From Desulfocapsa sp. (GTDB lineage: Bacteria > Desulfobacterota > Desulfobulbia > Desulfobulbales > Desulfocapsaceae), in the NCBI GenBank assembly GCA_030638765.1, contig DAOWDZ010000056.1, positions 1-17,323 on the forward strand: DNA of 17,323 nucleotides. The letters run 5' to 3'. Of this stretch, positions 523 to 17,101 are shown in pieces. How positions within the stretch are numbered: position 1 is the first letter of the stretch; every line of letters starts with the position of its first letter. The position numbers and the translations under genes were made by a program. A model generated the notes under the pieces. The model made no database searches, was not told the DNA's origin, and was given only the letters and a program-made list of their open reading frames with translations.

Positions 523-1980
523 TTGAAATCTAAAAATATCAGAAATACTAAATTCTGTCTGCTCCAGCTCATTGTCAGCTTTCTCTTCTTGACCGATGGC
601 CAAGCTGTATATGCTGACGAACTCTTTGATTATGTAACTATTGCCCTGAAACAGAGTGATATTTCCATGGATTTGACTGATAGTAAGATCTTGAGCGATA
701 TGTCAGTGGTTAAAGAAGAGCATCGATTTGATTCAAAACTTGTTCCCCTCTCTAACATTGGTGTGACTCAGGGAACTGGCTCTCAGACACTCGGGATGGA
801 AGTCCGTCGGGAGAATCCCTTTGGTTTAACCATGACTGCAGGGTTCCGAGGTGATCGTACCGAGCAGGACACTGAATACTCTGTGGAAAATATAAACAGT
901 GCCCGGGCCTATGTTAAGATGTCCCAGGGGGTGTTTCGTCGTTGGGGGAAGAAGTACAACCTTGCTGATCTTACCATTGCCCAGTTGAAAAACAGAGAGC
1001 AGATACTGAACAATGAACGTAAACGTCAGGATCTTATCTTGAGTACTGTGAAAAACTATTATCAGCTTGTTCTTGATCAGCAACTTGTTAAAAAGTCTAA
1101 ACAGGCTCTTAATCGTTCAAGAGAACATCTTGTTGCAGCCAAATCGAGGCACTCTGTTGATCTGGTTTCAAAAGTGGATGTCTATAGGGCGGAGCTTGCC
1201 TCACTTGATGCGGAGAGCAGACTGCAGGTGAGGCAACGTTCCAGAATGCGGTCATGTGATGTTTTCAATGAGCAACTTGGGTATCAGGAATATAATGATT
1301 TGTCTGTGGCAGACACTATTTCTCAAGTTGTGCCGGTGGTTCCTGATAACTGGGATGAAGCTTTACTAGCCAATCGATTGGATTGGCAGGCCTATCATCT
1401 CAAAGTTAAGTATGGTAAGCTTGCCGTATTCAAGGCACAGGAAAATCTTCAACCTGACATTCATCTTAATGTTACTGTGGAACAGAAGGGTGAAGGTGAT
1501 ACCATCAGTGAGGCCACCAGTCTGAATCAGACAAACTGGTCGGTACAGCTGGAGTTACGATCCGCACTTGATCTTTTTGACGAGGAAAACGATTTTGCCA
1601 GGGAAAAGATTCATATGCGTAAAATACGTCGGGAGGGAGCGACATTACGACGGAAAATATTCCGTCAAGCCAGGGAATCCTTTGATGACTTGAAGGCAGA
1701 AGAACGCTCTCATCAAATCAGTTTAAAGCGCCTGGAACAGTCTGCAAGTTCCCTGGATCTGACTAAAATTCGATATGAAAGAGGCTTGTCAGATAACCTT
1801 GATGTTCTGGATTCTGAAAGTGCCTATTCTGAGGCAGAACTGGATACCTCCAGGACGCTAATCTCTTATAATGTAGCTGCAGTAAATCTTGCCTATGCTC
1901 TCGGGGTTCTTGATGTGGAGTGGTTAAGTCTTTCTTTGTCTGGAGAATATCAGCAGGATACTGTTGATGCAGCCCTGTAA
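523..1980 (+). CDS. TolC-family outer-membrane efflux protein
   Basis: This would be the outer-membrane channel of a tripartite exporter, a trimeric beta-barrel with a long periplasmic alpha-helical tunnel. The 485-aa length is normal for TolC/OEP proteins. A signal peptide is clear (Lys/Arg-rich start, hydrophobic core CLLQLIVSFLFL, likely cleavage after AVYA about residue 31). Two helical repeat regions rich in Glu, Arg, Leu and Gln follow (about 155-245 and 350-440), the second with the typical LTKIRYERGLSDNLDVLDSE segment near 410-430. The start is TTG; no in-frame ATG fits and no good Shine-Dalgarno is visible, but the signal peptide begins right there. The next gene starts 24 nt downstream. 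Family assignment is firm; the substrate is unknown. Confidence 0.9.
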   Translation: MKSKNIRNTKFCLLQLIVSFLFLTDGQAVYADELFDYVTIALKQSDISMDLTDSKILSDMSVVKEEHRFDSKLVPLSNIGVTQGTGSQTLGMEVRRENPFGLTMTAGFRGDRTEQDTEYSVENINSARAYVKMSQGVFRRWGKKYNLADLTIAQLKNREQILNNERKRQDLILSTVKNYYQLVLDQQLVKKSKQALNRSREHLVAAKSRHSVDLVSKVDVYRAELASLDAESRLQVRQRSRMRSCDVFNEQLGYQEYNDLSVADTISQVVPVVPDNWDEALLANRLDWQAYHLKVKYGKLAVFKAQENLQPDIHLNVTVEQKGEGDTISEATSLNQTNWSVQLELRSALDLFDEENDFAREKIHMRKIRREGATLRRKIFRQARESFDDLKAEERSHQISLKRLEQSASSLDLTKIRYERGLSDNLDVLDSESAYSEAELDTSRTLISYNVAAVNLAYALGVLDVEWLSLSLSGEYQQDTVDAAL

Positions 1981-2004
1981 TCTATTACTTTTTTTGGTGA
2001 TTTT

Positions 2005-3456
2005 TTGGCTCGTTTATCTTTGCATTTTCTGCGTAGGCATGCTGCTCTGTCGAGCGGAATATTTCTTGTTTTCCTGCTGGCTTTAGTAACCAGTGGTGCA
2101 CTCTTTTTTTATGGTTCAGGAGAAAAAGAGAAACAGAAAATAGTTGTTGTTTCAAAGCAGAGTTTTCAACTTCGCGTCACTGAGCGCGGAGTTGTCAGGC
2201 CTGCAAGGGTGCTTTCCATAAAATCTATGATTTCCGGCAGTCAGTCAAAACTGGTCTGGATGATTGATGAAGGTGAAGCTATCACTAAAGGGCAGATTGT
2301 TGCACGCTTTGATACGAAGCCGTTTATGGATAATCTGGAAAAAGCTGAGCAGCATTTAACAGACGCCAGGGCCCAGTTTATTGCCGCAACAAAATCCATT
2401 GAGCTCCAGAAAGAAGACGAGAACAGTAAGCTGGAGGCTGCCAAGCGGGAGCTGGAAATTGCCACTATACAGGCAAATGATTTGAAAAATGGTGCCGGAC
2501 CATTGAAACGTCAGCAGTTTGAACAGAAAGTTCGGCAGGCGAAACGTGCTTATGATCTAGCTGCCAACGAGCTTGACGATCTTCGACCATTACTTGATAA
2601 AGGGCATGTTACTCTCAGGGAGTTTGAAAAGGGCGAGGATAGCCGGATATCTTCCGAGGAAGCTCTGGAAATTGCCAGGGCGGAGCTTGTAAACTTTGGA
2701 AAATATGAGTGGCCGCGTATCCTGCGGGAGGCTGAGGTTATAGAAGATGCGGCAAGAGTAAATCTGTCCAGAGTGTTGCGCACAACACAAATAACCCTGC
2801 AGAAATTCGCCTCTGAAGTGGAAAAAGCTCGCAGGGACCAGATAACGAAAGAAAAATTACTGAGAAAGGCTCAAAAAGATGTTGCTGCCTGTGATATTTA
2901 TTCTCCTGCTGATGGTATTCTTCTCTACGCCTTTATCCCAGCGATGAACAGTAGACGAAAAATCCAGATTGGTGATTCTGTCTGGGTTGGCCAGACTTTT
3001 CTTGAAGTTCCCGATACAAGAGAACTGGTGGTGGAAATTAATGTACGAGAGATAGATGTAGCGAAATTAAAAACAGGAATGAAAGCTGAGATTGAACTGG
3101 ATGCTTTTCCAGGCCATATTTTTCCAGGGGAACTTATGGCCATAGATGCTCTTGCCAGAAAAGAGGAAGGTGAGAGTGTCAGGCGGTTTTTTTCCAGGAT
3201 AAAATTGTTGGAGTTAAGTAGTGGTATTCATGTCGGGATGTCGGCAAATGTTAAGATAATTTATAAAGAATTAAATGAGGTTCCGGCAATTCCACCAAGT
3301 TGTATTGTGTACAGTGACGGCAAACCTATGGTTAAAAAAGCTGTAGGTGATGGGTACAACCTGATAGACGTGAAACTTGGCGGTAGTGGTATTCAATGGG
3401 TTCAGGTGGAAGAGGGGCTCAATGAAGGTGATTATATTGTTATTGAAAGCCTGTAG
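2005..3456 (+). CDS. HlyD/MacA-type periplasmic adaptor (membrane-fusion protein)
   Basis: It would bridge the inner-membrane ABC transporter and the TolC-like channel. There is one N-terminal membrane anchor (about residues 15-36, SSGIFLVFLLALVTSGALFF). A first half of the lipoyl/barrel-sandwich domain (about 45-110, with VVRPARVLSIKS and GEAITKGQIVARFD) comes next. A long coiled-coil hairpin follows (about 110-295), then the second lipoyl half (CDIYSPADGILLYA) and a beta-barrel/membrane-proximal domain to residue 483. The start is TTG, supported by GGTGA at 1996-2000. It sits in the middle of the exporter operon, 27 nt before the ATPase gene. The coiled coil is longer than in short RND adaptors, as expected for ABC-linked adaptors. 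Confidence 0.9.
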   Translation: MARLSLHFLRRHAALSSGIFLVFLLALVTSGALFFYGSGEKEKQKIVVVSKQSFQLRVTERGVVRPARVLSIKSMISGSQSKLVWMIDEGEAITKGQIVARFDTKPFMDNLEKAEQHLTDARAQFIAATKSIELQKEDENSKLEAAKRELEIATIQANDLKNGAGPLKRQQFEQKVRQAKRAYDLAANELDDLRPLLDKGHVTLREFEKGEDSRISSEEALEIARAELVNFGKYEWPRILREAEVIEDAARVNLSRVLRTTQITLQKFASEVEKARRDQITKEKLLRKAQKDVAACDIYSPADGILLYAFIPAMNSRRKIQIGDSVWVGQTFLEVPDTRELVVEINVREIDVAKLKTGMKAEIELDAFPGHIFPGELMAIDALARKEEGESVRRFFSRIKLLELSSGIHVGMSANVKIIYKELNEVPAIPPSCIVYSDGKPMVKKAVGDGYNLIDVKLGGSGIQWVQVEEGLNEGDYIVIESL

Positions 3457-3483
3457 CTTTGCCTTGTTTCAATTGGTGGTAAC

Positions 3484-4170
3484 ATGACAATATTGCTGGA
3501 AGCTCGGAATGTGGAAAGAAGCTTTCAGATAGGTAGCCAGTTGATTCCGGCTCTGGGAAAGGTCTCGCTCAGTCTGGAAAAGGGTGAGTTTTTTATGATT
3601 ACTGGGCCCTCTGGATCCGGTAAATCAACCCTTTTGAATCTTCTCAGTGGGCTCGATAAGCCAAGCTGTGGAGATGTCTTTTTTAAAGGGAATTCTCTTT
3701 TTGAGGCTGGAGAAAAAGAGCAGGTTTACATACGAAATGCTTTTTTTGGATTTATCTTTCAAACTCCTCATCTCCTGCCGGATAAGACCATTCTTGAGAA
3801 TATTGCATTACCATTTCATTATGGGAAAGTTTCTGACTCTACTCGTGCATGGGCAAGGTGCAGGGAGTTGCTGGATTATGTGGGATTGTCTTCTCTTGCC
3901 GAACGCTATCCGAATACTTTGTCTGGAGGTGAGATGCAGAGGGTCGTTTTTGCAAGAGCCCTGGTCCGTGAGCCTGAAGTCATTTTTGCTGATGAGCCCA
4001 CGGGCAGTCTTGATGCTGATAATTCAAAACGTTTGCTTGAATTGTTACAGGATCAGACCAGAATGGGACGAACCATTGTAATGGTCAGCCATGACCAGGA
4101 AGCTCTTTCCTATGGCAAATCTACTCTTCGTCTTGATAAGTTTAATCTAGCCGCTACGGGTAATGTGTGA
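3484..4170 (+). CDS. ABC transporter ATP-binding protein (LolD/MacB-type)
   Basis: This is the cytoplasmic ATPase that powers the neighbouring permease. All nucleotide-binding motifs are present: Walker A GPSGSGKST (about residue 41), Q-loop region FIFQTPHLLP (about 94), signature LSGGEMQR (about 146), Walker B VIFADEPTGSLD (about 165) and the switch histidine in MVSHD. The sequence matches the LolD/MacB/FtsE subfamily in length (228 aa) and in the FxFIFQxxxLLP and DEPTGSLD patterns. The start is ATG with GGTGGTAAC upstream. Its stop overlaps the start of the permease gene, so the two are translationally coupled. In MacB the ATPase and permease are one polypeptide; here they are separate. Confidence 0.93.
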   Translation: MTILLEARNVERSFQIGSQLIPALGKVSLSLEKGEFFMITGPSGSGKSTLLNLLSGLDKPSCGDVFFKGNSLFEAGEKEQVYIRNAFFGFIFQTPHLLPDKTILENIALPFHYGKVSDSTRAWARCRELLDYVGLSSLAERYPNTLSGGEMQRVVFARALVREPEVIFADEPTGSLDADNSKRLLELLQDQTRMGRTIVMVSHDQEALSYGKSTLRLDKFNLAATGNV

Positions 4171-5408
4171 TGTTACAGCATCAACGAATCCTTGATGCCC
4201 GTGATGCCTGGAGTTCACTGCTGCGGCGTCCTCTTCGTTCTCTGTTGAGCAGCCTGGGTATAGGCATCGGAGTGGCTGCTCTGGTAGCCATGCTTTCAAT
4301 AAGTGAAGGAGCAAAGAGAAAGGCATTGACCAAGATAATATCCCTTGGAGTTAATACCCTGAGAATCGAGCAGCAGGTTTCCGGGGCCAGACTGGGGCGG
4401 GCCAGTGTGGCGAACCTTTCCCAAGGCTTGACTTTTGATGATACAGAATCGATTTCGAACTGGCTCGGTACTAGAGGGACTGTCGCCTCATATTGTCGTG
4501 AAGATTCTGTTCTTGTAACAGGAGCATCATCTGAAAGTTTGACTATTCTTGGTGTCACCCGGCAGTGGTTTGAAGCAGAAAAGCTTGCATTTCAATGGGG
4601 GCGATCTTTTACCAGTAGGGAAGAAAAGGAACATGCAAATTTTTGTGTGATTGGCAGCAAGGTTGCTACAAAACTCAGGGTTATAGGTAATAGCACTCTG
4701 CGGTTAAATAATCATCCTGCCACTGTTGTTGGTGTGCTTGCTCCCCGTGGTCGATTACTGACAGAAGGAACGGGTCTTTCTTCTCTGGATTTTGATAATT
4801 TGATTATCATGCCCATAACAAGTTTTCCTTTTGCTGATGAACTGGCTGGTCGTCAGTTGCTTGATGGTCTGGTTATCTCTCTGACCACAGAAAAAGAAAG
4901 TGACATACTTGAAACTGCCAACCAGGTACAGGAAATTTTACAACGATCCCACAGGGGAGTTACTGATTATAATATAGTGATTGCTTTAAACTTGCTTCGG
5001 GAAGCACGGGAAAGTCAGCAGTTGTTTTCTCTGGTCATGGGTTCTATTGCCGGCTTGTCTCTTCTGGTGGGAGGGATAGGAGTGATGAATGTGATGCTTG
5101 CTAATATTTCCGAACAAACCCGGGAAATTGGCTTGCGAATGGCAGTGGGTGCCAGCAGGGGCCGTATTGTCAGTCTCTATCTATGGAACTCTATTCTTCT
5201 TACAGTAACCGGAGCTGTATGGGGAGTTGGTGGTGGCCTATTACTAGCCGTCCTGGTCCAGCAATATGCCGGTTGGGAAGTTGCTTTTTCTTTGGTGAGT
5301 CTGATTCTTGCTCCTGGATCAGCACTTCTTGCTGGTCTGGTGTTTGGCTTGCATCCGGCTATCCGGGCTGCTTCTCTTTATCCTGCAATTGCTCTTAGAG
5401 ATTCTTGA
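4167..5408 (+). CDS. MacB/FtsX-type ABC transporter permease
   Basis: This is the inner-membrane subunit, in the four-helix FtsX/MacB topology that uses a mechanotransmission mechanism rather than a membrane channel. Helix 1 is near residues 25-48 (LLSSLGIGIGVAALVAML), followed by a large periplasmic MacB_PCD-like domain (about 50-280). Three C-terminal helices follow. The hallmark VGGIGVMNVMLANISEQTRE motif and IGLRMAVGAS coupling segment lie near 308-335. GTG at 4167 overlaps the ATPase stop; ATG at 4170 is an equally good start one codon later. It is the last gene of the operon. The function is export of an unknown substrate from periplasm or inner membrane through the TolC-like channel. 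Confidence 0.92.
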   Translation: MMLQHQRILDARDAWSSLLRRPLRSLLSSLGIGIGVAALVAMLSISEGAKRKALTKIISLGVNTLRIEQQVSGARLGRASVANLSQGLTFDDTESISNWLGTRGTVASYCREDSVLVTGASSESLTILGVTRQWFEAEKLAFQWGRSFTSREEKEHANFCVIGSKVATKLRVIGNSTLRLNNHPATVVGVLAPRGRLLTEGTGLSSLDFDNLIIMPITSFPFADELAGRQLLDGLVISLTTEKESDILETANQVQEILQRSHRGVTDYNIVIALNLLREARESQQLFSLVMGSIAGLSLLVGGIGVMNVMLANISEQTREIGLRMAVGASRGRIVSLYLWNSILLTVTGAVWGVGGGLLLAVLVQQYAGWEVAFSLVSLILAPGSALLAGLVFGLHPAIRAASLYPAIALRDS

Positions 5409-5706: not shown

Positions 5707-5783
5707 GCGCCAGTAGCTCAGCTGGATAGAGCAACGGCCTTCTAAGCCGTAGGTCCCCAGTTCGAACCTGGGCTGGCGTACCA
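5707..5783 (+). tRNA. tRNA-Arg(UCU), CCA encoded
   Basis: A full cloverleaf can be drawn. The acceptor GCGCCAG (5707-5713) pairs with CTGGCGT (5773-5779), with one G:U end pair. The D arm is GCTC...GAGC. The anticodon stem ACGGC / GCCGT encloses CTTCTAA with anticodon TCT (5741-5743). The T arm is CCCAG-TTCGAAC-CTGGG, then discriminator A and encoded CCA (5781-5783). It reads AGA codons. Its 3' half recurs, with a different T stem, at 7121, which suggests this gene served as an integration target. Confidence 0.97.
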
Positions 5784-6366: not shown

Positions 6367-6717
6367 ATGTGGGATGTAATAACAACAGATAAATTTGATG
6401 AATGGTTTGGTTCGCTGGATGACATTGACAGGACAAACGTTATCGCGGGAATGTTACTGCTTGAGACGAAAGGTCCATCTTTACCACGTCCTTATGCTGA
6501 TACAGTAGAAGGATCTGTGTTTCCGAATATGAAAGAGTTGCGTATTCAAAGCAAAGGTAAACCATTGAGAGCATTTTTTGCTTTTGATCCAAAAAGAAAA
6601 GCGGTGATTCTTTGTGCAGGCAATAAAACAGGCAACGAAAAAAGATTTTACAAACAAATGATTCCTATAGCGGATAAAGAATACAAGAATCATTTGGCTA
6701 ACCTGGAGGGTAGGTGA
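6367..6717 (+). CDS. higB: RelE/HigB-family toxin (toxin-first TA module)
   Basis: The 116-residue protein matches the Gp49-like/HigB branch of the RelE superfamily, which are ribosome-dependent mRNA endonucleases. Family-like features are WDVITTDKFDEWF at the N terminus, the LPRPYADTVEGS segment, MKELRIQ, FFAFDPKRKAVILCAGNK and NEKRFYKQMIPIAD near the C terminus, whose basic residues correspond to the RNA-contacting surface. The ATG is preceded by GAGGG. Its stop overlaps the start of the antitoxin gene, in the toxin-before-antitoxin order typical of HigBA. Its promoter carries a likely antitoxin operator. It lies within the tRNA-bounded interval, so it may have stabilised that element. Toxicity is inferred from family. 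Confidence 0.85.
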   Translation: MWDVITTDKFDEWFGSLDDIDRTNVIAGMLLLETKGPSLPRPYADTVEGSVFPNMKELRIQSKGKPLRAFFAFDPKRKAVILCAGNKTGNEKRFYKQMIPIADKEYKNHLANLEGR

Positions 6718-7019
6718 TGGCTAGAACACTAAAAGAAATCATAGCACATGAGAAGCCTGAGGTTGTAAAGAAGGCCAAAGCATTGGCAACAGAAATGCTC
6801 CTCAACATTCACTTGGCAGAGCTTAGAGAAAAAACTAAATTAACACAGAATGATATTGCTTTGTCAATGGGAGTAAAACAACCGACTATTGCTGGTATGG
6901 AAAAGAATGGTCAGGATATTAAGCTTTCTTCTCTAAAAAGATATGTTGAGGCGGCAGGTGGTAAATTAAATCTAGATATCGAGCTTTCCGACGGCAGTCA
7001 TTTTGGTTTCTCTGTGTGA
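6717..7019 (+). CDS. higA: HigA-like XRE-family antitoxin
   Basis: This would be the antitoxin: a DNA-binding protein that neutralises the upstream toxin and represses the operon. The chosen ATG at 6717 overlaps the toxin stop (TGATG) and has GGAGG at 6706-6710; a GTG one codon earlier (6714) is less likely. The 100-residue protein has an N-terminal helical part (about 1-35) and an XRE helix-turn-helix (about 38-75: LTQNDIALSMGVKQPTIAGMEKNG). A short C-terminal strand region follows (GKLNLDIELSDGSHFGFSV), as in antitoxins partnered with this toxin family. The likely target is the TATAGG-N6-CCTATA palindrome in the operon promoter. Confidence 0.85.
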   Translation: MARTLKEIIAHEKPEVVKKAKALATEMLLNIHLAELREKTKLTQNDIALSMGVKQPTIAGMEKNGQDIKLSSLKRYVEAAGGKLNLDIELSDGSHFGFSV

Positions 7020-11700: not shown

Positions 11701-11863
11701 GATCCTGAAACTGTATCCTGATCAGAAAGCTATTGTGACCAGTGGGTTTTCTGAAAGTACTGATATTAAAGCAACGCTTGACCTTGGAGCTAATGGGTTT
11801 ATCAAAAAACCATATTCAATGGCTAGTCTTGATCGAGCTGTGAAGGAAGCTTTGAATAAATAA
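8714..11863 (+). CDS. Hybrid sensor histidine kinase (dCache-PAS-GAF-HisKA-HATPase-REC)
   Basis: The 1049-aa inner-membrane sensor kinase starts at ATG with GAGG 5 nt ahead. Domains in order: transmembrane helix 1 (about 8-28); a periplasmic dCache_3-like sensor (about 35-285); helix 2 (about 293-318); a coiled-coil linker; PAS (about 355-470); GAF (about 485-660); HisKA with His687 in GVAHDLNN; HATPase with N box NLLTNAMEAL, G1 DDGSGIAP, F box FEPFYTKK and G2 GTGLGLSI; a C-terminal receiver (about 930-1045) with VVDDEP, phospho-acceptor Asp981 and Lys in FIKKPYS. The GAF domain carries clustered cysteines (513, 524, 528, 540, 546, 571), suggesting metal, heme or redox sensing. No partner regulator is adjacent. 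The family is certain; the signal is unknown. Confidence 0.95.
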   Translation: MLTRTKIISIVMLLMGLFSVVFLVTLSSTQQHALDKLINTKVHFANLLAKNVLQQAADRYQKRIKGFINYKSVKTKELFVNALAHQDRESLLHLTQPFLEIFQKENPYFTSLSWILPDNTVILRVQKPELFGDNILKFLPDVVEANLTKTQFHGFGVARSGMQYRIVEPVVYEGRHVGVVLFGLKASFISDMLEKQLDVPSGLAILNKECAFAVYAETDGLKGNTHTVRVSDKKIFDILPKNIDWSQQRHDFQANDRNYILLNLFPLKNFIGTQLGRYFIILDVTEEREAASRILYGALIVCCLLLVLSFVVIYVGYNALVQKIVNLNKTLKKNNLELEYRVSERTTDLQERESQLRQIIDLVPHFIFVKDETGKFEIVNKATAEVFGTTVEDLTGRKDVEFVANDEEMESFWSDDFEVIKSGKIKFIPEEKITDSENKTRYLQTTKVPFKISGTEISALLGIAVDITDRKQTEQQIIRLNHLREELLGLGDFNEKLIHITDAVVDIFDADFCRVWIIKSGDRCNDSCPHAEATEGPHVCLHRERCLHLAASSGRYSGLDSTMHGRVPFGCYKIGMIASGAIESFNTNDVTHDSRVHDREWAKKLGMVSFAGYCLFSDNGLPIGVIALFSKHVIGPHEVGLLEGVANSTSQVIQMAMAATEKEAMRVNLHRAQKMEAIGLMASGVAHDLNNILAGIVSYPELLLLKLSESSELRKPIEEIRESGKRAATVVADLLTVARGAASTKVPCDVNVLIQDYLDSPECSKLKYLHPGVICTNQLDAENPIIACSSVHIKKTIMNLLTNAMEALGKKGNVVIATCNQTIEKTNILEKKIPPGNYVLITVRDDGSGIAPKDLNHIFEPFYTKKIMGRSGTGLGLSIVWNTVQDHNGEIFVESNEKGSIFQLYFPLSTEEIINDCPEANTEQTFTTKDTYILVVDDEPQIRDIATQLLKVIGYKVDSVCSGELAIAFVKDNPVDLIVMDMLMEPGMNGRQTYAEILKLYPDQKAIVTSGFSESTDIKATLDLGANGFIKKPYSMASLDRAVKEALNK

Positions 11864-11952
11864 GATTCGTTTGTTTAGCTAATTGCTGATGTGTTGTTTG
11901 TATGTAGCTGTTATTGAATCAGAAAGGCTGAGTTTGTTTGTTAGCGTTGGCG

Positions 11953-11969
11953 ATAGTTACTTTAACTAT
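11953..11969. repeat. Perfect inverted repeat after the kinase gene
   Basis: ATAGTTA-CTT-TAACTAT followed by TTT. It could act as a weak AT-rich terminator for the kinase or as an operator for the PEP-CTERM/lasso transcript that starts downstream. Confidence 0.35.
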
Positions 11970-12042
11970 TTTGCATGATTTGTAGTGTTTAGGTGCTCCT
12001 ACCCATTGATTTTCAAGCGTCTGGCGGTTACAGTATCACACA

Positions 12043-12093
12043 TGAATGACGAAAGTGTTGTTCGTTGTAATTGTGAATGACGAGATTGTGAAT
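12043..12093 (+). promoter_or_regulatory. Clustered direct repeats ahead of the PEP-CTERM/lasso-precursor genes
   Basis: TGAATGACGA occurs at 12043-12052 and 12074-12083 (31-bp period), and ATTGTGAAT at 12070-12078 and 12085-12093 (15-bp period). They end about 20 nt before the ATG at 12113, just ahead of its Shine-Dalgarno AAAGG. Spacing close to whole helical turns suits tandem regulator sites. No clear sigma-70 or sigma-54 promoter is identifiable. Confidence 0.35.
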
Positions 12094-12112
12094 AGGTACA
12101 AAAGGTGATGAC

Positions 12113-12964
12113 ATGGGAACAAAGCTAATTGCTGTAGTCTCGGTAGGTTTTTTTCTTTTCTTTTCGACGAGTGCAAGTGCGGTGGAATTTGCTGGAAGTG
12201 CTATAGGGTCTTGGCTTGATGTGAAATCTGATAATCCAGCTCCTGATTATCCTACAACCCCTGTAACCAACCCCTCTATGGATATTTGGGATGTGGAAAA
12301 TGATGATGATGGTTTGGATCCAGCAATTACAGAGCATGATACCGCACTGTTTTGGTGGGGAAGTTCAACCTATCTGAGTCCATATAGCGGGACGCTTTCT
12401 GATACTGGATCTGCTTTTCCTCGAAGTGAGTTTATCTTTGACGGAGTTGGAAGTGATGGTGCTCCTGGTGTTGTAGAGACAGACGATGATGAAATCTTTG
12501 CATTTGGGGATTTCACGTATAATAACGGCGATAATTACAATAGTGCAACTGTAAATGGAGTTGATCTGTTTCTTGACTTTATGCTCACTGATAACGGCGC
12601 AACTAGTTTTGAGAAATCATTTAATTTAACGGCGTCATATGCAATAGCTAATACAGCTAATACAGAAAATGATTCTGATACTCCTGTTTCTGATACAGTA
12701 ACGCTTACAAATTTTTCAGAGAAATATACCTTTGAGTATGATAGTATCAGTTATGATTTTGAAATTTTAGGTTTTGGAATACTTGATGAATTTGATGATC
12801 TTTCTATAAGTAATTTCATTGTGGTGGCTGAAAATGCCACTGCAGAACGTCAATTATATGCGAAGATATCTGAAACTCCAGTGCCTGAACCTGCCACCCT
12901 TGTACTTTTCAGTGTGGGCTTATTGGGACTGTCTGGTATGCGTCTCAGGAAGAAGAAATTGTAA
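12113..12964 (+). CDS. PEP-CTERM sorted surface protein (choice-of-anchor K-like)
   Basis: The 283-aa exported protein has a signal peptide (about 1-23, ending TSASA) and a classic PEP-CTERM sorting signal at the C terminus: VPEPATLVL, a hydrophobic helix and the basic tail RLRKKKL. In that system exosortase EpsH/XrtA cleaves the tail in the inner membrane, usually with exopolysaccharide production. The acidic, beta-rich middle, with FAFGDFTYNNGDNYNSATVNG followed by VDLFLDFML, resembles choice-of-anchor K domains; that label is from memory. The ATG has AAAGG at 12101-12105. It lies 40 nt ahead of the lasso precursor on the same strand with no terminator between, so the two are probably co-transcribed. 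No exosortase gene is in the window. Confidence 0.88.
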   Translation: MGTKLIAVVSVGFFLFFSTSASAVEFAGSAIGSWLDVKSDNPAPDYPTTPVTNPSMDIWDVENDDDGLDPAITEHDTALFWWGSSTYLSPYSGTLSDTGSAFPRSEFIFDGVGSDGAPGVVETDDDEIFAFGDFTYNNGDNYNSATVNGVDLFLDFMLTDNGATSFEKSFNLTASYAIANTANTENDSDTPVSDTVTLTNFSEKYTFEYDSISYDFEILGFGILDEFDDLSISNFIVVAENATAERQLYAKISETPVPEPATLVLFSVGLLGLSGMRLRKKKL

Positions 12965-13004
12965 ATATTTTCACTGAAGACTTTTTTTTATTAGGAGCTG
13001 GTTT

Positions 13005-13193
13005 ATGAAACAGAATGTAAAAAAAGAACCTGTGAGTACTGGTATAGTAGCTGAGACAGGAGCTTCAATATATGAAAAACCAACTTTGGTAAGATTTGGT
13101 ACTGTTACCAAATTAACATTTGGTGCAGCTGGATCTGGCATGGATGGTGAGTGTACTGATAATACGTGTAAAGAGGATCTGACGTCGTATTAG
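13005..13193 (+). CDS. Lasso peptide precursor (class IV-like Cys pattern)
   Basis: The 62-residue precursor has AGGAG 8 nt ahead of its ATG. Residues 23-38 match the lasso leader signature YxxPxLxxxGxxxxxT exactly (Tyr23, Pro26, Leu28, Gly32, Thr38). Thr38 is the conserved penultimate leader residue, so cleavage is predicted after Phe39. The core is then 23 residues, starting GAAGSGMD: Gly1 amine and Asp8 side chain would form an 8-residue macrolactam. Both cysteines (core 11 and 16) lie in the tail and could form a tail disulfide, as in class IV lasso peptides such as LP2006. The core ends Leu-Thr-Ser-Tyr and is acidic. By hand calculation the lasso's neutral monoisotopic mass is about 2305.88, or 2303.86 with the disulfide. 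It is transcribed towards the processing genes. Confidence 0.9.
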   Translation: MKQNVKKEPVSTGIVAETGASIYEKPTLVRFGTVTKLTFGAAGSGMDGECTDNTCKEDLTSY

Positions 13194-13220
13194 GATCTTT
13201 TTTAGAGTAAGTTTTAAAGA

Positions 13221-13253
13221 GGCACACTGTCTATGTTGATAGAGAGTGTTGCC
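13221..13253. terminator. Hairpin between the convergent precursor and cyclase genes
   Basis: GGCA/TGCC, CACT/AGTG and CTAT/ATAG segments nest into one imperfect stem with a GTTG loop. It lies midway between the precursor stop (13193) and the cyclase stop (13285). T tracts are weak on both sides, so a bidirectional terminator is likely by position but not proven. Confidence 0.45.
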
Positions 13254-13284
13254 GAGTTTCGTTAGTACTCTTTTCTGCGTTTGC

Positions 13285-15156
13285 TCAAGTTTTGAAGGCG
13301 GCTCTGTGCCATATTTCTATGGCTATAGCATTAAATGTCTCCCGTTTTCTGCCTCCCTTGGAATGTCTGTTTTTCTTGATACCCTCCAATACTGCTATGA
13401 ATTTTTCCTGAAGGATATCTGTATCTATCCAGCCCCGTTTGGAAATGGATAAGTTTTTCATATATTTGTTAAACTGAGGGCTGAGAAATGCTGCGTTGAT
13501 AAAAAAAGAAAATTCAGCTTTGCTATGACGTTTTTTTATCTGCGTGGGGAGTGTGTAGTTGGCTTCTTGTCTTAAAAGAAATTTGGTCTGCCCCTGACAG
13601 TAGCATTCGTAATCTGGTATCGAGATGGCATAATCAGCAATTCTGCGATCTAAAAAAGGTGAGCGGAACTCAATGCCAAGGGAAGCGTGATACCTGTCTA
13701 TATTGTCTAAAACAAAACTTTCTGTTCCGTTTGAATGGATGTTGGCCGTTGAGAGGGCGCCAAGGTTGTCGAGTGTTAACCTTTGGTCTGAATTGACGAT
13801 TCGATTGCGGATATCACTGGATTTTAAAAAGTCTTCAGGAAGCCATTTCGGCAGAGAGAGTGGCTGTCGTGTGCAAAGGGCTTTGCGCAGAAAACAGGGA
13901 GTTGATGACCAAAAAAGATTTACTAAAAGACGCTTTAACGCGGCATGTTTATTTCTCGAGAAAGAAAAATAAAACTGCTCTTTTAGATCTTTGAACCTCT
14001 TACCGAGAATAAAATCGAGGTAAGGGTATCCACTTCCTTGAAACCATTCATCGCCTCCAATACCAGAAAGTAAAACCCTGGAACCGCTGTTTGCAATTCT
14101 TTTTTTAAGATTGTTATTCATGGTTAAGTTTACAGGATATGGGGTTTGGTGACTGAATTTAGCCTGTTTTAGCCATGATTCAGCTACATATTCGTGTGAT
14201 GGTATTTTGTGCACCTGAAGCCCTAATGCTTCAGCAACGATGTCAATATATTGCTCTTCATCGCAATGTAATCCGGGGTAAACCGCACTGTAGATTTCGG
14301 GGTCGGGATGGTTGCTTTCTCTAAGGATGTTGCACGCCATTCCAACAACTGACGAAGAGTCAAGTCCGCCACTCAGTGATACGCTCACGGGGTCGGTTGT
14401 TCGCAGCATGCTCCCAACAGATGAGCGAAAAATATCAAGAAAATGTTCCGTGTAATCGGAACTGTTTTTGTACCATATGCGTTTGTTGGGCTGTGGCGAC
14501 CAAAACTGCTTTACAGTGAATTGTTCTGGTGATGTGATAAGGAAATGTCCGGGAGCAATTCTGCTGATATGTCTAAATAGTGTCTCAGTTTTACTTCGAA
14601 AAGTCGCGACAAGATACTCGGCAACCATTCCTTCATTGGGGGTTAATGGAACCCTGGGGTATTCTACAATTTGTTTGATTTCTGAGCTGAAGAGGAACTG
14701 CTTGGATGTACGATAATAATAAAATGGCTTAACACCTATGTAGTCTCTGGCACAAATTAACCGTTGTTTGGCGGGTTCCCAAAGCGCAAAAGAAAAATCC
14801 CCAATGAGTTGAGCGAAACCAGCAACTCCCCATCTTTTATAAGTACTGACAATAAGCATGCTGTCAGAAAGAGTAGTGCTCTGTTGGATGCCCAATTTGT
14901 CGCACAGCTCTTCACGGTTATCAATTCTGGCATCAGCTGTTATGGTTAGACCGCTTTCCAGGTCAGTGTATGGTAAAATCTCGGACTGCGATTCTGGAGT
15001 AGTTTGCAACATGCTATGGCCAAAACCGATATGGGGCAGGGTAATGGTTTTTGTTCCATCCGGACCACGATGAGCACTTGCTTCAGCCATTCCTTGTAGG
15101 TGCGATGAATTAACGGGTCGGTCATCCGAGTGATATATGCCGAAAATACCACTCAT
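13285..15156 (-). CDS. Lasso cyclase, asparagine synthetase B homologue
   Basis: The 623-aa enzyme would adenylate the core Asp8 side chain and form the macrolactam with Gly1. The N-terminal glutaminase-like domain (about 1-200) starts MSGIFGI; the Cys2 nucleophile of asparagine synthetases is Ser here, as in lasso cyclases that use no glutamine ammonia. The synthetase domain holds the PP-loop SLSGGLDSSS (260-269), GIGGDEWF (365-372) and the later EFRSPFLDRR and KFLLRQ segments that build the ATP and substrate pocket. The ATG lies 2 nt after the kinase stop with no good Shine-Dalgarno, so translation is probably coupled. It is last in the minus-strand operon and converges on the precursor gene. 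Confidence 0.93.
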   Translation of the reverse strand: MSGIFGIYHSDDRPVNSSHLQGMAEASAHRGPDGTKTITLPHIGFGHSMLQTTPESQSEILPYTDLESGLTITADARIDNREELCDKLGIQQSTTLSDSMLIVSTYKRWGVAGFAQLIGDFSFALWEPAKQRLICARDYIGVKPFYYYRTSKQFLFSSEIKQIVEYPRVPLTPNEGMVAEYLVATFRSKTETLFRHISRIAPGHFLITSPEQFTVKQFWSPQPNKRIWYKNSSDYTEHFLDIFRSSVGSMLRTTDPVSVSLSGGLDSSSVVGMACNILRESNHPDPEIYSAVYPGLHCDEEQYIDIVAEALGLQVHKIPSHEYVAESWLKQAKFSHQTPYPVNLTMNNNLKKRIANSGSRVLLSGIGGDEWFQGSGYPYLDFILGKRFKDLKEQFYFSFSRNKHAALKRLLVNLFWSSTPCFLRKALCTRQPLSLPKWLPEDFLKSSDIRNRIVNSDQRLTLDNLGALSTANIHSNGTESFVLDNIDRYHASLGIEFRSPFLDRRIADYAISIPDYECYCQGQTKFLLRQEANYTLPTQIKKRHSKAEFSFFINAAFLSPQFNKYMKNLSISKRGWIDTDILQEKFIAVLEGIKKNRHSKGGRKRETFNAIAIEIWHRAAFKT

Positions 15157-15158
15157 AG

Positions 15159-16109
15159 TTAATTTTTGTGGAGGGGAGCAGTGGAGGCAGTTATGATTGC
15201 TTTCATTATGTCAGGGAGTGACTCCATCCGTCGGGGAGAATTAAGTTTTAAAAATCGGGTTTTGGATTTTTTGATGAGCCCAGCAAGAGAAGTGAGTTGC
15301 TGACTAGTTTTATTACGGTCTGTAATGTCCAGGGGGAAACAGTGTTTTATAAGCTCGATGATGGCCTTTGATCTTGGAATGTTATCAGTTGTCGTGAAGT
15401 CGTTGGGCGGGAGTTTGGGGTCACGTAACATGAAAATTGCAGAAATTGGAAGTGTTTGCACTCTTTTTTCTTCAGGCAATGATAAACGTTTTTTTTGCGA
15501 ATAATGACATACATCAGTTAGTGTTTCTGGTAAATTTGGAAGCTGTGCAAGGCTATCATTTAAAAGGCGAATGCCGTGATAACTTGGTGTTCCGAGCATG
15601 TCGGATTTTTTGGTTCTTAAGAGAATGCAATCGTCTGTCAGGAGAGGGTGGCCTTCACTGTAGAAAAATGCGGCAAGGGTTGATTTTCCCCAACCTGAGT
15701 TACCGCAAAACAGAACACCATTATCATCGATCTGAACACAACTTGCGTGAATAATTAAATCACCATTGTGGCTGAGTAAGCGAGGGATAACCTGGTCAAG
15801 AAGTAAGTGGCTAATGGTGTGGTTGGGTATTTTTGTGTTGGAGTATGAGCTTATGTGGTTATTGTCTGGTTGAAGTTTAAAATCAGATATCCCAGGAAAG
15901 CGGAGCCAGTATGATTCCTTTTCTTTCCCTACAGAGATGGAGGTATTTCCATTGGGGAGTTTCCAGTGATGGATCCATTTAATGGCAATGTCAGGGGGAG
16001 AATCCTGTAATGAATTAAAGAAAATTGTGGGAGGGGCACTACTGTTTTCCTGTAATTCAGGAAGTGGAATATTGCTTTCCACAATATGGTTGAATATGGA
16101 ATATTTCAA
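15159..16109 (-). CDS. HPr kinase-like P-loop kinase of the lasso cluster
   Basis: The 316-aa protein resembles HprK-related kinases of lasso clusters (PadeK/ThcoK type), some of which phosphorylate the precursor's C-terminal serine. Key features are LIIHASCV (His121), Walker A GNSGWGKST (136-144) and the acidic pair Asp159-Asp160. The N-terminal 100 residues form a variable beta-rich domain. The start is TTG, supported by GAGAGG 6 nt upstream, 27 nt after the B1 gene. Here the predicted core ends Ser-Tyr, not Ser, so a classical C-terminal Ser target is absent; Ser22, Ser5 or a Thr would have to be used, or the protein does something else. Family confident, reaction inferred. Confidence 0.85.
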   Translation of the reverse strand: MKYSIFNHIVESNIPLPELQENSSAPPTIFFNSLQDSPPDIAIKWIHHWKLPNGNTSISVGKEKESYWLRFPGISDFKLQPDNNHISSYSNTKIPNHTISHLLLDQVIPRLLSHNGDLIIHASCVQIDDNGVLFCGNSGWGKSTLAAFFYSEGHPLLTDDCILLRTKKSDMLGTPSYHGIRLLNDSLAQLPNLPETLTDVCHYSQKKRLSLPEEKRVQTLPISAIFMLRDPKLPPNDFTTTDNIPRSKAIIELIKHCFPLDITDRNKTSQQLTSLAGLIKKSKTRFLKLNSPRRMESLPDIMKAIITASTAPLHKN

Positions 16110-16136
16110 CGTGAGCCTCTCTAGCTTGGCACTTTT

Positions 16137-16418
16137 TTAGTTACTTTCTGGAAAGATGAGTCCGGCCTCGAGTAGTTCTGAAAGAAGTACTGAAATATCC
16201 GCCTCTAACGTGTCTTTGTCAACTTCATAATCACCTTGTAAAGATGAAACTAAATAGTCGAGTGTCGCACCCTTTTGAAGGGTTGCCAGGATTTTACTCC
16301 CAACCTCATTGAGTCCGAAGTAGCATTCACTTTTCATGTCAAGCAAGACAGCTTCTCCATCAATTTCCTGACTGAGCACATCCTTGGATAACAGGAATAT
16401 CTGATTTCTATTGATCAT
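16137..16418 (-). CDS. PqqD-like leader-binding protein (lasso B1, RRE)
   Basis: The 93-aa protein is a stand-alone RiPP recognition element. It has the PqqD winged-helix pattern: VLSQEIDGEAVLLDMKSECYFGLNEVGSKIL, then helices ending DISVLLSELLEAGLIF. In split-B lasso systems B1 binds the YxxP...L part of the leader and presents it to the B2 peptidase. No strong Shine-Dalgarno is visible. A TATAAT-like -10 (minus strand, 16432-16427) lies close to the ATG, so a short or absent leader is possible. It is 27 nt ahead of the kinase gene and 131 nt after the peptidase gene. Confidence 0.9.
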   Translation of the reverse strand: MINRNQIFLLSKDVLSQEIDGEAVLLDMKSECYFGLNEVGSKILATLQKGATLDYLVSSLQGDYEVDKDTLEADISVLLSELLEAGLIFPESN

Positions 16419-16485
16419 AGTGTTTAATTATAAATTTATATTGGAAAAGTTGCCATAGAAAATGTTATATGCTTTGTGGGGTGAT

Positions 16486-16499
16486 AGTATATTAATACT
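16486..16499. promoter_or_regulatory. AT-rich palindrome between the B2 and B1 genes
   Basis: AGTAT-ATTA-ATACT lies in the 131-nt gap between the peptidase and B1 genes. It is positioned to be an operator for an internal promoter reading B1, kinase and cyclase. The AT content makes chance possible. Confidence 0.25.
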
Positions 16500-16549
16500 A
16501 GATAGATACATGCTCTATGTGGTTCCAGGTGTGAATCTGTCTTTTGACG

Positions 16550-17101
16550 TTAAGTTTGTTTTTTCCAGAGGAACACTGAGACTACGGTAAAAGATTCATG
16601 GCCACTTTCACCTGTGAGTATTGTATCTCCACATTGCGACCAGGCGTGTGCCTGGGCTGTTTCTGGTCGTTCTTTTAAGACACCCAGGTAGAAAACACCT
16701 GGGATATTTCTTTTGTATAACATTCGGTGTGCTGTAAGGGCTTGCGTGAGGCAGGTGCTTTGCCATGGGGTATGTTGTGCTGCCCTTTCGATTGCCTTGC
16801 CAATAAGTAGAGCATTGTCCATATCAACAGAAGATAATGCTGGACCTGATTTGATACTTGTATGTTGTTCAAGAGAACGTGTAAGTCTTTTAAATGGAAT
16901 AGTTAGTATGGCGGTACGAACTATTCCTAACAGCATGAAGGCCTTAATAAAAAGAATTTTTTCTTTAAGGGATAAGTCGTTGAATTTGCGTATGTGACTC
17001 TTCAATGTGTTGTGTGTAAGTGAAGGATAATAAAGAATTATCTGCTCTTTGTGTGGCGATCGTATCTTTCCGACACCTGTTAAAGAAAGTTTTGTAAACA
17101 A
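16550..17101 (-). CDS. Lasso leader peptidase (B2, transglutaminase-like)
   Basis: This would be the cysteine protease that removes the leader after Phe39. The family motifs are clear: IERAAQHTPWQSTCLTQAL with catalytic Cys117, then GVFYLGV and AHAW with His152, and Asp159 as the likely third residue. The preceding helical part (RKFNDLSLKEKILFIKAFMLLGIVRTAI...PFKRL) is typical of B2. The given start is a TTG with only AAGA upstream. A second TTG at 17005 would give 151 residues, nearer the usual B2 length, but it also lacks a ribosome site, so the N terminus is uncertain. It is the first gene of the minus-strand set and divergent from the right-edge gene. Confidence 0.87.
   Translation of the reverse strand: MFTKLSLTGVGKIRSPHKEQIILYYPSLTHNTLKSHIRKFNDLSLKEKILFIKAFMLLGIVRTAILTIPFKRLTRSLEQHTSIKSGPALSSVDMDNALLIGKAIERAAQHTPWQSTCLTQALTAHRMLYKRNIPGVFYLGVLKERPETAQAHAWSQCGDTILTGESGHESFTVVSVFLWKKQT

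Follow-up and report, generated by a model that had tools for sequence, protein, structure and literature searches.

A lasso peptide gene cluster of Desulfocapsa with a putative precursor kinase and an adjoining PEP-CTERM surface protein gene

Our analysis of contig DAOWDZ010000056.1 of Desulfocapsa sp., probably a sulfur-cycling bacterium (assembly GCA_030638765.1; 17,323 nucleotides, the whole of which is called the window) suggests that its lasso peptide gene cluster is very probably linked in function with the gene of a PEP-CTERM surface protein. In the sequence, the genes of the precursor (A), the cyclase (C), a precursor kinase (K) and the two B proteins (B1 and B2) are present, the surface-protein gene is located directly upstream of A, and this pairing is kept in related genomes. 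The PEP-CTERM gene (12113..12964, plus strand) encodes 283 amino acid residues with a choice-of-anchor K domain and the predicted fold of an RTX-adhesin peptide-binding domain. The precursor gene follows in the same orientation after a 40-bp gap (12965..13004), which has an AGGAG ribosome-binding site recognized by eye and no terminator-like site, and the minus strand carries, in reading order, the genes of B2, B1, the kinase and the cyclase. Scans of positions 11850-13400 detected no terminator and sigma-70 sites at chance level only, and the PEP-CTERM and precursor genes are probably co-transcribed. A sigma-54-like site, as a special promoter before the PEP-CTERM gene, was sought by eye only, and nothing convincing was found.

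The same kind of PEP-CTERM gene precedes the precursor gene at three related loci, with a 4-bp overlap in L001 and gaps of 65 bp in L003 and 43 bp in L118. To place this arrangement, we used 257 genomes of Desulfobulbales, the order of Desulfocapsa and of the genome of L001 (G001). There are few PEP-CTERM genes (242 matches in 47 genomes, 187 Mb). Among the matches listed, a PEP-CTERM gene lies within 2 kb in 15 of the 35 kinase-plus-cyclase clusters of the order; 0.35 would be expected from each genome's own PEP-CTERM density (Poisson-binomial P ~1e-22, kinship ignored), and a few weak PEP-CTERM genes could be missing from this check of positions. The 35 clusters are the loci of the order in which tblastn detected both C and K. 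The window and loci from other orders were left out, as were loci with B2 without C, C without K or K without C (L123, L124, L128-L130, L136, L138-L143, L147, L150, L151, L155, L156, L160 and L162-L165). In one of the latter, L165 in genome G071, K and a PEP-CTERM gene are separated by about 2-2.5 kb. The positives include L007, where the gene is 1.85 kb from B2, and L117, where the PEP-CTERM frame is cut by the contig start.

The surface proteins of the 15 clusters fall into family I, the type of the window (L001, L003 and L118), family II (L002 and L157) and family III (L144, L146, L148, L149, L153 and L161), with those of L154, L007, L117 and L135 left unassigned; most pairs between the families have no mutual similarity beyond the tail. 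A profile of the family I body, from which the PEP-CTERM tail was left off in four of the five rows, gave three strong matches in the 257 genomes, each encoded upstream of A; the only others, in G238 and G071, were two of marginal strength (E ~1e-10). The family II profile gave two matches, both at lasso clusters. The family III profile gave 15, the best six being lasso-linked; the other nine are weaker, and none of these is near a kinase or B2 match. The choice-of-anchor K domain is above its cut-off in five of the 257 genomes, and the five genes include the three that are lasso-linked.

None of the three families is confined to a single site. Family I adjoins a histidine kinase gene in the window and a 442-residue gene (glutamine synthetase by reading, glnA-like) elsewhere, from which it seems that the pair stays linked through a change of site. 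The 442-residue gene adjoins clusters L001, L002, L003, L118, L146, L148 and L153; the lasso clusters and surface proteins there differ between related genomes, as if it marked a swap site for lasso cassettes. Three clusters adjoin another common gene, of 429-434 residues.

The tail of the window PEP-CTERM protein (motif, hydrophobic stretch and basic end) is above the cut-offs of TIGR02595 and PF07589, and its N-terminus MGTKLIAVVSVGFFLFFSTSASA is signal peptide-like by eye. The protein is above the cut-off of the choice-of-anchor K family and below that of the THxN family (71.7 of 85 bits), and a search with its sequence found itself and P0123 (44%) only. P0123 may share a contig with the kinase homologue P0028, the longest contigs of the two being equal in length (15993). 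Both its profile and a low-confidence AF2 model matched the peptide-binding domain of RTX adhesins, and from this modelling a peptide-binding-domain fold is likely. An exosortase was found in ten of 12 related genomes. According to PMC12077191 and PMC10865825, RTX-adhesin peptide-binding domains grip C-terminal tripeptides with an optimum of -YTD. The four precursors paired with family I end in TSY, GTT, KTT and QST; their penultimate Ser or Thr (4/4, versus 4/18 of the other precursors) looks like an echo of the Thr in that optimum.

A lasso peptide is knotted and antibiotic-like, and its C-terminus is a free tail. Since the matched domain grips C-terminal tripeptides, we propose that the surface protein captures or displays the tail of its own lasso peptide. 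In the proposed sequence of events, K would phosphorylate the precursor, most likely at Ser5 of the ring; B1 and B2 would cut off the leader of 39 residues behind Thr(-2)-Phe(-1); and C would close the Gly1-Asp8 ring round the tail, after which the lasso peptide would be exported. The PEP-CTERM protein would pass through Sec export and exosortase processing to the cell surface or matrix, where its peptide-binding-domain-like fold would grip the free tail and hold the peptide at the surface of the producer, as display, reservoir, receptor or sink. Direct binding of the tail is a candidate interaction that we advance tentatively, by analogy with the adhesin domains. The broader reading, that the lasso system has a surface protein dedicated to it and that this protein interacts in some way with the peptide, is plausible and falls just short of being probable. 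A further extension is doubtful: that in Desulfobulbales a dedicated, exosortase-sorted surface protein has been turned into a tail receptor displaying a ring-phosphorylated peptide, with partners that differ by lasso type (choice-of-anchor K/peptide-binding, F5/8 type C and a third family), such lasso-partner pairs then being undescribed two-component surface systems.

Several observations weigh against a surface partner that binds the peptide. The AF2 model has a mean pLDDT of 53 and was built from a five-row alignment; a common fold does not show peptide binding; and none of the compared cores ends in -Tyr-Thr-Asp. No exosortase was seen in two of the 12 relatives (G108 and G136). For 20 of the 35 clusters the matches listed include no PEP-CTERM gene at a distance of up to 2 kb, and six of these 20 belong to genomes that lack such genes altogether. 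Many clusters share insertion sites; the 15 positives are therefore not independent of one another, which makes the P value above too small. A regular expression for PEP-CTERM tails, applied to all loci, gave 19 rows. Three of these, L016, L022 and L072, belong to the 75 genome-scan loci from outside the order, and of the three L022 alone had a convincing tail near the cluster, the matches at L016 and L072 not looking like PEP-CTERM tails. No PEP-CTERM tail was found at the loci with C and B2 and without K (L129, L140 and L150, two of them on short contigs). The kinase of L118 is the closest to that of the window (57.6% identity), yet its PEP-CTERM protein is the most distant within family I (37.8%); the identities do not run parallel, and we do not claim strict co-descent of surface protein and kinase. 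Other folds are met in the surface proteins, F5/8 type C in L157 (family II) and a thioester domain in L007, and those of family III have no match in the PDB; tail capture by the window-type fold is therefore not general. In the PEP-CTERM protein of L007 (L007:14753-15418) the thioester domain (TED, PF08341) is internal, and the lasso cluster nearby has a core with Ser3.

The strongest alternative, somewhat doubtful in our view, is a co-regulated but independent adhesin that serves the same life-style (biofilm or attachment, surface competition) without contact with the peptide. The several adhesin-like kinds of partner protein (choice-of-anchor K, F5/8 type C and thioester domain) are consistent with it, as is the reported association of PEP-CTERM proteins with exopolysaccharide and floc formation. 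The occurrence of families I and II in the order only at lasso loci, apart from the two marginal family I matches, is stronger than co-regulation needs, and it is the peptide-binding domains in particular whose fold is predicted for family I. Immunity as the purpose, with the surface protein sequestering the peptide outside the producer, is improbable. The likely operon would couple the doses of binder and peptide, and no exporter of the ATP-binding cassette (ABC) type adjoins the window cluster, MacB-like genes (read from translations) being more than 6 kb off; but L001, L003 and L118 have the same surface protein plus an ABC ATPase-permease pair (by reading translations), and such pairs in lasso clusters are commonly credited with export and immunity. 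It is most improbable that the PEP-CTERM gene is a neutral neighbour of an ordinary lasso cluster through a shared history of insertion sites: the seven clusters beside the 442-residue gene and the three beside the 429-434-residue gene do indicate that part of the co-occurrence is common descent, but three families, unlike beyond the tail in most pairs, have each stayed with lasso clusters at two or more sites, strong matches to families I and II in the order are confined to lasso clusters, and the PEP-CTERM and precursor genes of L001 overlap.

The kinase gene (15159..16109, minus strand; 316 residues) encodes an HprK-like protein above the cut-off of PF07475. A search with this protein found 863 relatives at E<=0.001, of which the best 120 were listed. 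In an alignment of 37 rows including the window (A1), residues H121, G136, G139, G141, K142, S143, D159 and D160 were invariant (37/37), and their spacing is identical to that of H148-G163-G166-G168-K169-S170-D186-D187 of BsfK as given in PMC10368454. PadeK, ThcoK and SyanK have been reported to modify the C-terminal Ser of the precursor (PMC9266682), and BsfK, from a former deltaproteobacterium, to phosphorylate Ser3 inside the ring (PMC10368454). We compared six cores of one kinase clade, from the window, L001, L003, L118, L002 and L157. Within the first ten positions these have only Gly1, Gly4, Ser5 and Asp8 in common. In the same order, position 3 is A, P, A, A, G and G, without Ser or Thr in any of the six, and the last residue is Y, T, T, T, K and T, without a C-terminal Ser in any, the L002 core ending in Pro-His-Lys. 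Because the core lacks both a C-terminal Ser and Ser3, and because Ser5 is the sole Ser or Thr shared by the six cores, Ser5 is favoured as the phosphosite; phosphorylation at this ring position (+80 Da) seems, from the comparison of cores, slightly more probable than not. It should be considered that Ser5 rests on six cores and that Gly4-Ser5 could be structural.

It is also conceivable, though rather unlikely, that the kinase acts at the C-terminal part of the precursor, on a C-terminal Thr or the penultimate Ser or Thr, in the way of the PadeK-type enzymes at a C-terminal Ser. Four of the six cores of the clade end in Thr, the four precursors paired with family I share the penultimate Ser/Thr, and 11 of 16 further precursors, picked for the comparison table by the leader motif, end in Ser. 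These 11, set against the clade with Ser5, suggest that both kinase habits are present in one order. The C-terminal Tyr of the window core and the Pro-His-Lys end of L002 do not fit such an action, whereas Ser5 is in all six cores and BsfK works inside the ring (PMC10368454), and Ser5 is thus retained as the favoured site.

The identity of the window cluster as a lasso cluster is practically certain. The precursor (13005..13193, plus strand; 62 residues) has 20.4 bits with NCBIfam model lasso_leader_L3 (NF033521; cut-off 19). Its leader of 39 residues (13005..13121) contains YEKPTLVRFGTVTKLTF and Thr(-2); the exact motif Y-x2-P-x-L-x3-G-x5-T has a single occurrence in the window, read in six frames, and a single one in 300 same-size order-1 Markov windows together. 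Used alone as a query, the precursor matched itself only. In the core GAAGSGMDGECTDNTCKEDLTSY (13122..13190, plus strand), a ring of Gly1 and Asp8, both present in the six related cores, is proposed, with a possible C11/C16 disulfide and a free C-terminus -Thr-Ser-Tyr. The computed masses are 2305.88 for the lasso and 2303.86 with the disulfide, or 2385.84 and 2383.83 when phosphorylated. The asparagine synthetase-like cyclase (13285..15156, minus strand; 623 residues) is above the cut-offs of Asn_synthase (PF00733) and GATase_7 (PF13537), and its best NCBIfam match is the lasso cyclase NF033535 (415.6 bits, 4e-124), below the cut-off of 525 of that lineage model. B1 (16137..16418, minus strand; 93 residues), a PqqD-like recognition element of ribosomally synthesized and post-translationally modified peptides (RiPPs), matched PqqD (PF05402) with 58 bits and, in the PDB, TbiB1 (E=6e-11, the best match) and TfuB1 (2e-5); it is under the cut-offs of the lineage-specific NCBIfam models. 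The transglutaminase-like leader peptidase B2 (16550..17101 as the longest open reading frame, minus strand) has 89.7 bits with NF033537 (cut-off 33), and according to the alignment of relatives its true start is probably a TTG near 17005, which fits better than 17101.

A preliminary description of this DNA had named four of these genes (precursor, B1, B2 and cyclase) as a lasso cluster with split B proteins in a probable Desulfobacterota genome. All four are present and are backed by NF033521, PF05402, NF033537 and PF00733/PF13537, respectively; the split B proteins agree with the family searches and with the match of B1 to TbiB1, the exact YxxPxLxxxGxxxxxT leader is there, above the NF033521 cut-off and rare by chance, and the closest clusters, which come from metagenome-assembled genomes (MAGs) of Desulfocapsa and Desulfobulbaceae in the order Desulfobulbales, agree with the lineage. 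The cluster had been called complete-looking. This needs correction: the kinase gene between cyclase and B1 had been overlooked, as had the PEP-CTERM gene, whose start is the first coordinate then given (12113), and no exporter adjoins the cluster. Likewise, the masses proposed then, 2305.88 and 2303.86, are right for the unphosphorylated lasso and incomplete as a full prediction: since a precursor kinase is encoded, product forms with +79.97 Da are expected. The lineage, described then as little explored for lasso peptides, is less empty than this implies. B2 is above its cut-off in 45 of the 257 genomes, from which lasso clusters appear common in Desulfobulbales, and a phosphorylated lasso precursor of Bradymonas has been published (PMC10368454).

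Twelve relatives were read gene by gene. An ABC ATPase-permease pair adjoins the cluster in four of them (L001, L003, L118 and L153; by reading translations), and L146 and L148 show a permease only, several contigs being cut. In the window, genes for TolC-like, HlyD-like, ABC ATPase and MacB-like permease proteins stand in a row at 523-5408 (from translations); they could serve as an export route, and nothing ties them to the peptide. Elsewhere in the window, a tRNA gene lies at 5707-5780 and a toxin-antitoxin-like pair at 6367-7019 (RelE/ParE-like and HipB-like, each below its family cut-off). Between the convergent precursor and cyclase genes an inverted repeat was noticed by eye at 13221-13253; a two-way terminator is possible, and the terminator scan lists none there.

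The closest clusters are L001 and L002 (Desulfocapsa MAGs) and L003 (a Desulfobulbaceae MAG), with kinase identities of 52, 44 and 45%, respectively; the kinases of L041-L080 (cyanobacterial and other) match at 24-33% only. L001 has no local B2, and the sole B2 match of its genome is on another contig (L083, contig C12) among non-lasso genes, so that leader removal would be served in trans. A B2-like gene at L157 (L157:9934-10347) has the Cys motif without the usual HAW motif carrying the presumed catalytic His; a further B2 of that genome belongs to a second lasso cluster, L119. Cys-Leu is the C-terminal pair in every precursor candidate of the kinase-linked loci L019, L020, L022, L026, L027, L031, L033 and L035; these loci come from Acidobacteria, Rokubacteria, Nitrospira and two deltaproteobacterial MAGs.

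Among known systems, the bsf cluster of Bradymonas sediminis FA350 (BsfA, B1, B2, C, D, K and N; PMC10368454) likewise has split B1 and B2, a host from the former Deltaproteobacteria, and a kinase with the H-G-G-G-K-S-D-D motif at identical spacing that acts within the ring. It differs in the Ser3 target and in Ile(-2) of BsfA, where the window has Ala3, Ser5 and the normal Thr(-2), and in its D transporter and nucleotidyltransferase. Clusters of the paeninodin type (PadeK, ThcoK, SyanK and PsmK; PMC9266682) also have an HprK-like kinase beside A, B1, B2 and C, but the conserved C-terminal Ser modified there is absent from the window core and the five related cores. The fold predicted for the window protein matches the peptide-binding domains of the RTX adhesins MpIBP/MpAFP and FrhA (PDB 5k8g, 6x6q, 6x5v, 6x5w, 9y9w and 9ybq). 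In these adhesins it is one domain of a giant type I-secreted protein that binds the C-termini of other proteins (PMC12077191, PMC10865825), whereas the window protein is a stand-alone protein of 283 residues with a PEP-CTERM sorting tail, encoded beside a lasso precursor. With the exosortase-sorted surface proteins of the THxN and choice-of-anchor K kinds, it shares the tail and the choice-of-anchor K domain, remaining under the THxN cut-off. In the literature searched, which left most subscription papers outside, no link between lasso peptides and PEP-CTERM proteins was found apart from co-mentions through cited titles, and no paper brought together at least three of PEP-CTERM, exosortase, HPr kinase and PqqD. 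Lasso clusters, lasso kinases, PEP-CTERM proteins and peptide-binding domains are each known; their union was not found there.

For many lasso peptides the benefit to the producing cell is not established. The peptide of the window may stay attached to the cell surface instead of merely being set free. If the proposed partnership is true, a dedicated surface protein with a peptide-binding fold would give direct access to this question by predicting where the peptide goes and what it touches, a function would be suggested for a choice-of-anchor K PEP-CTERM protein, and lasso phosphorylation within the ring would have one more example.

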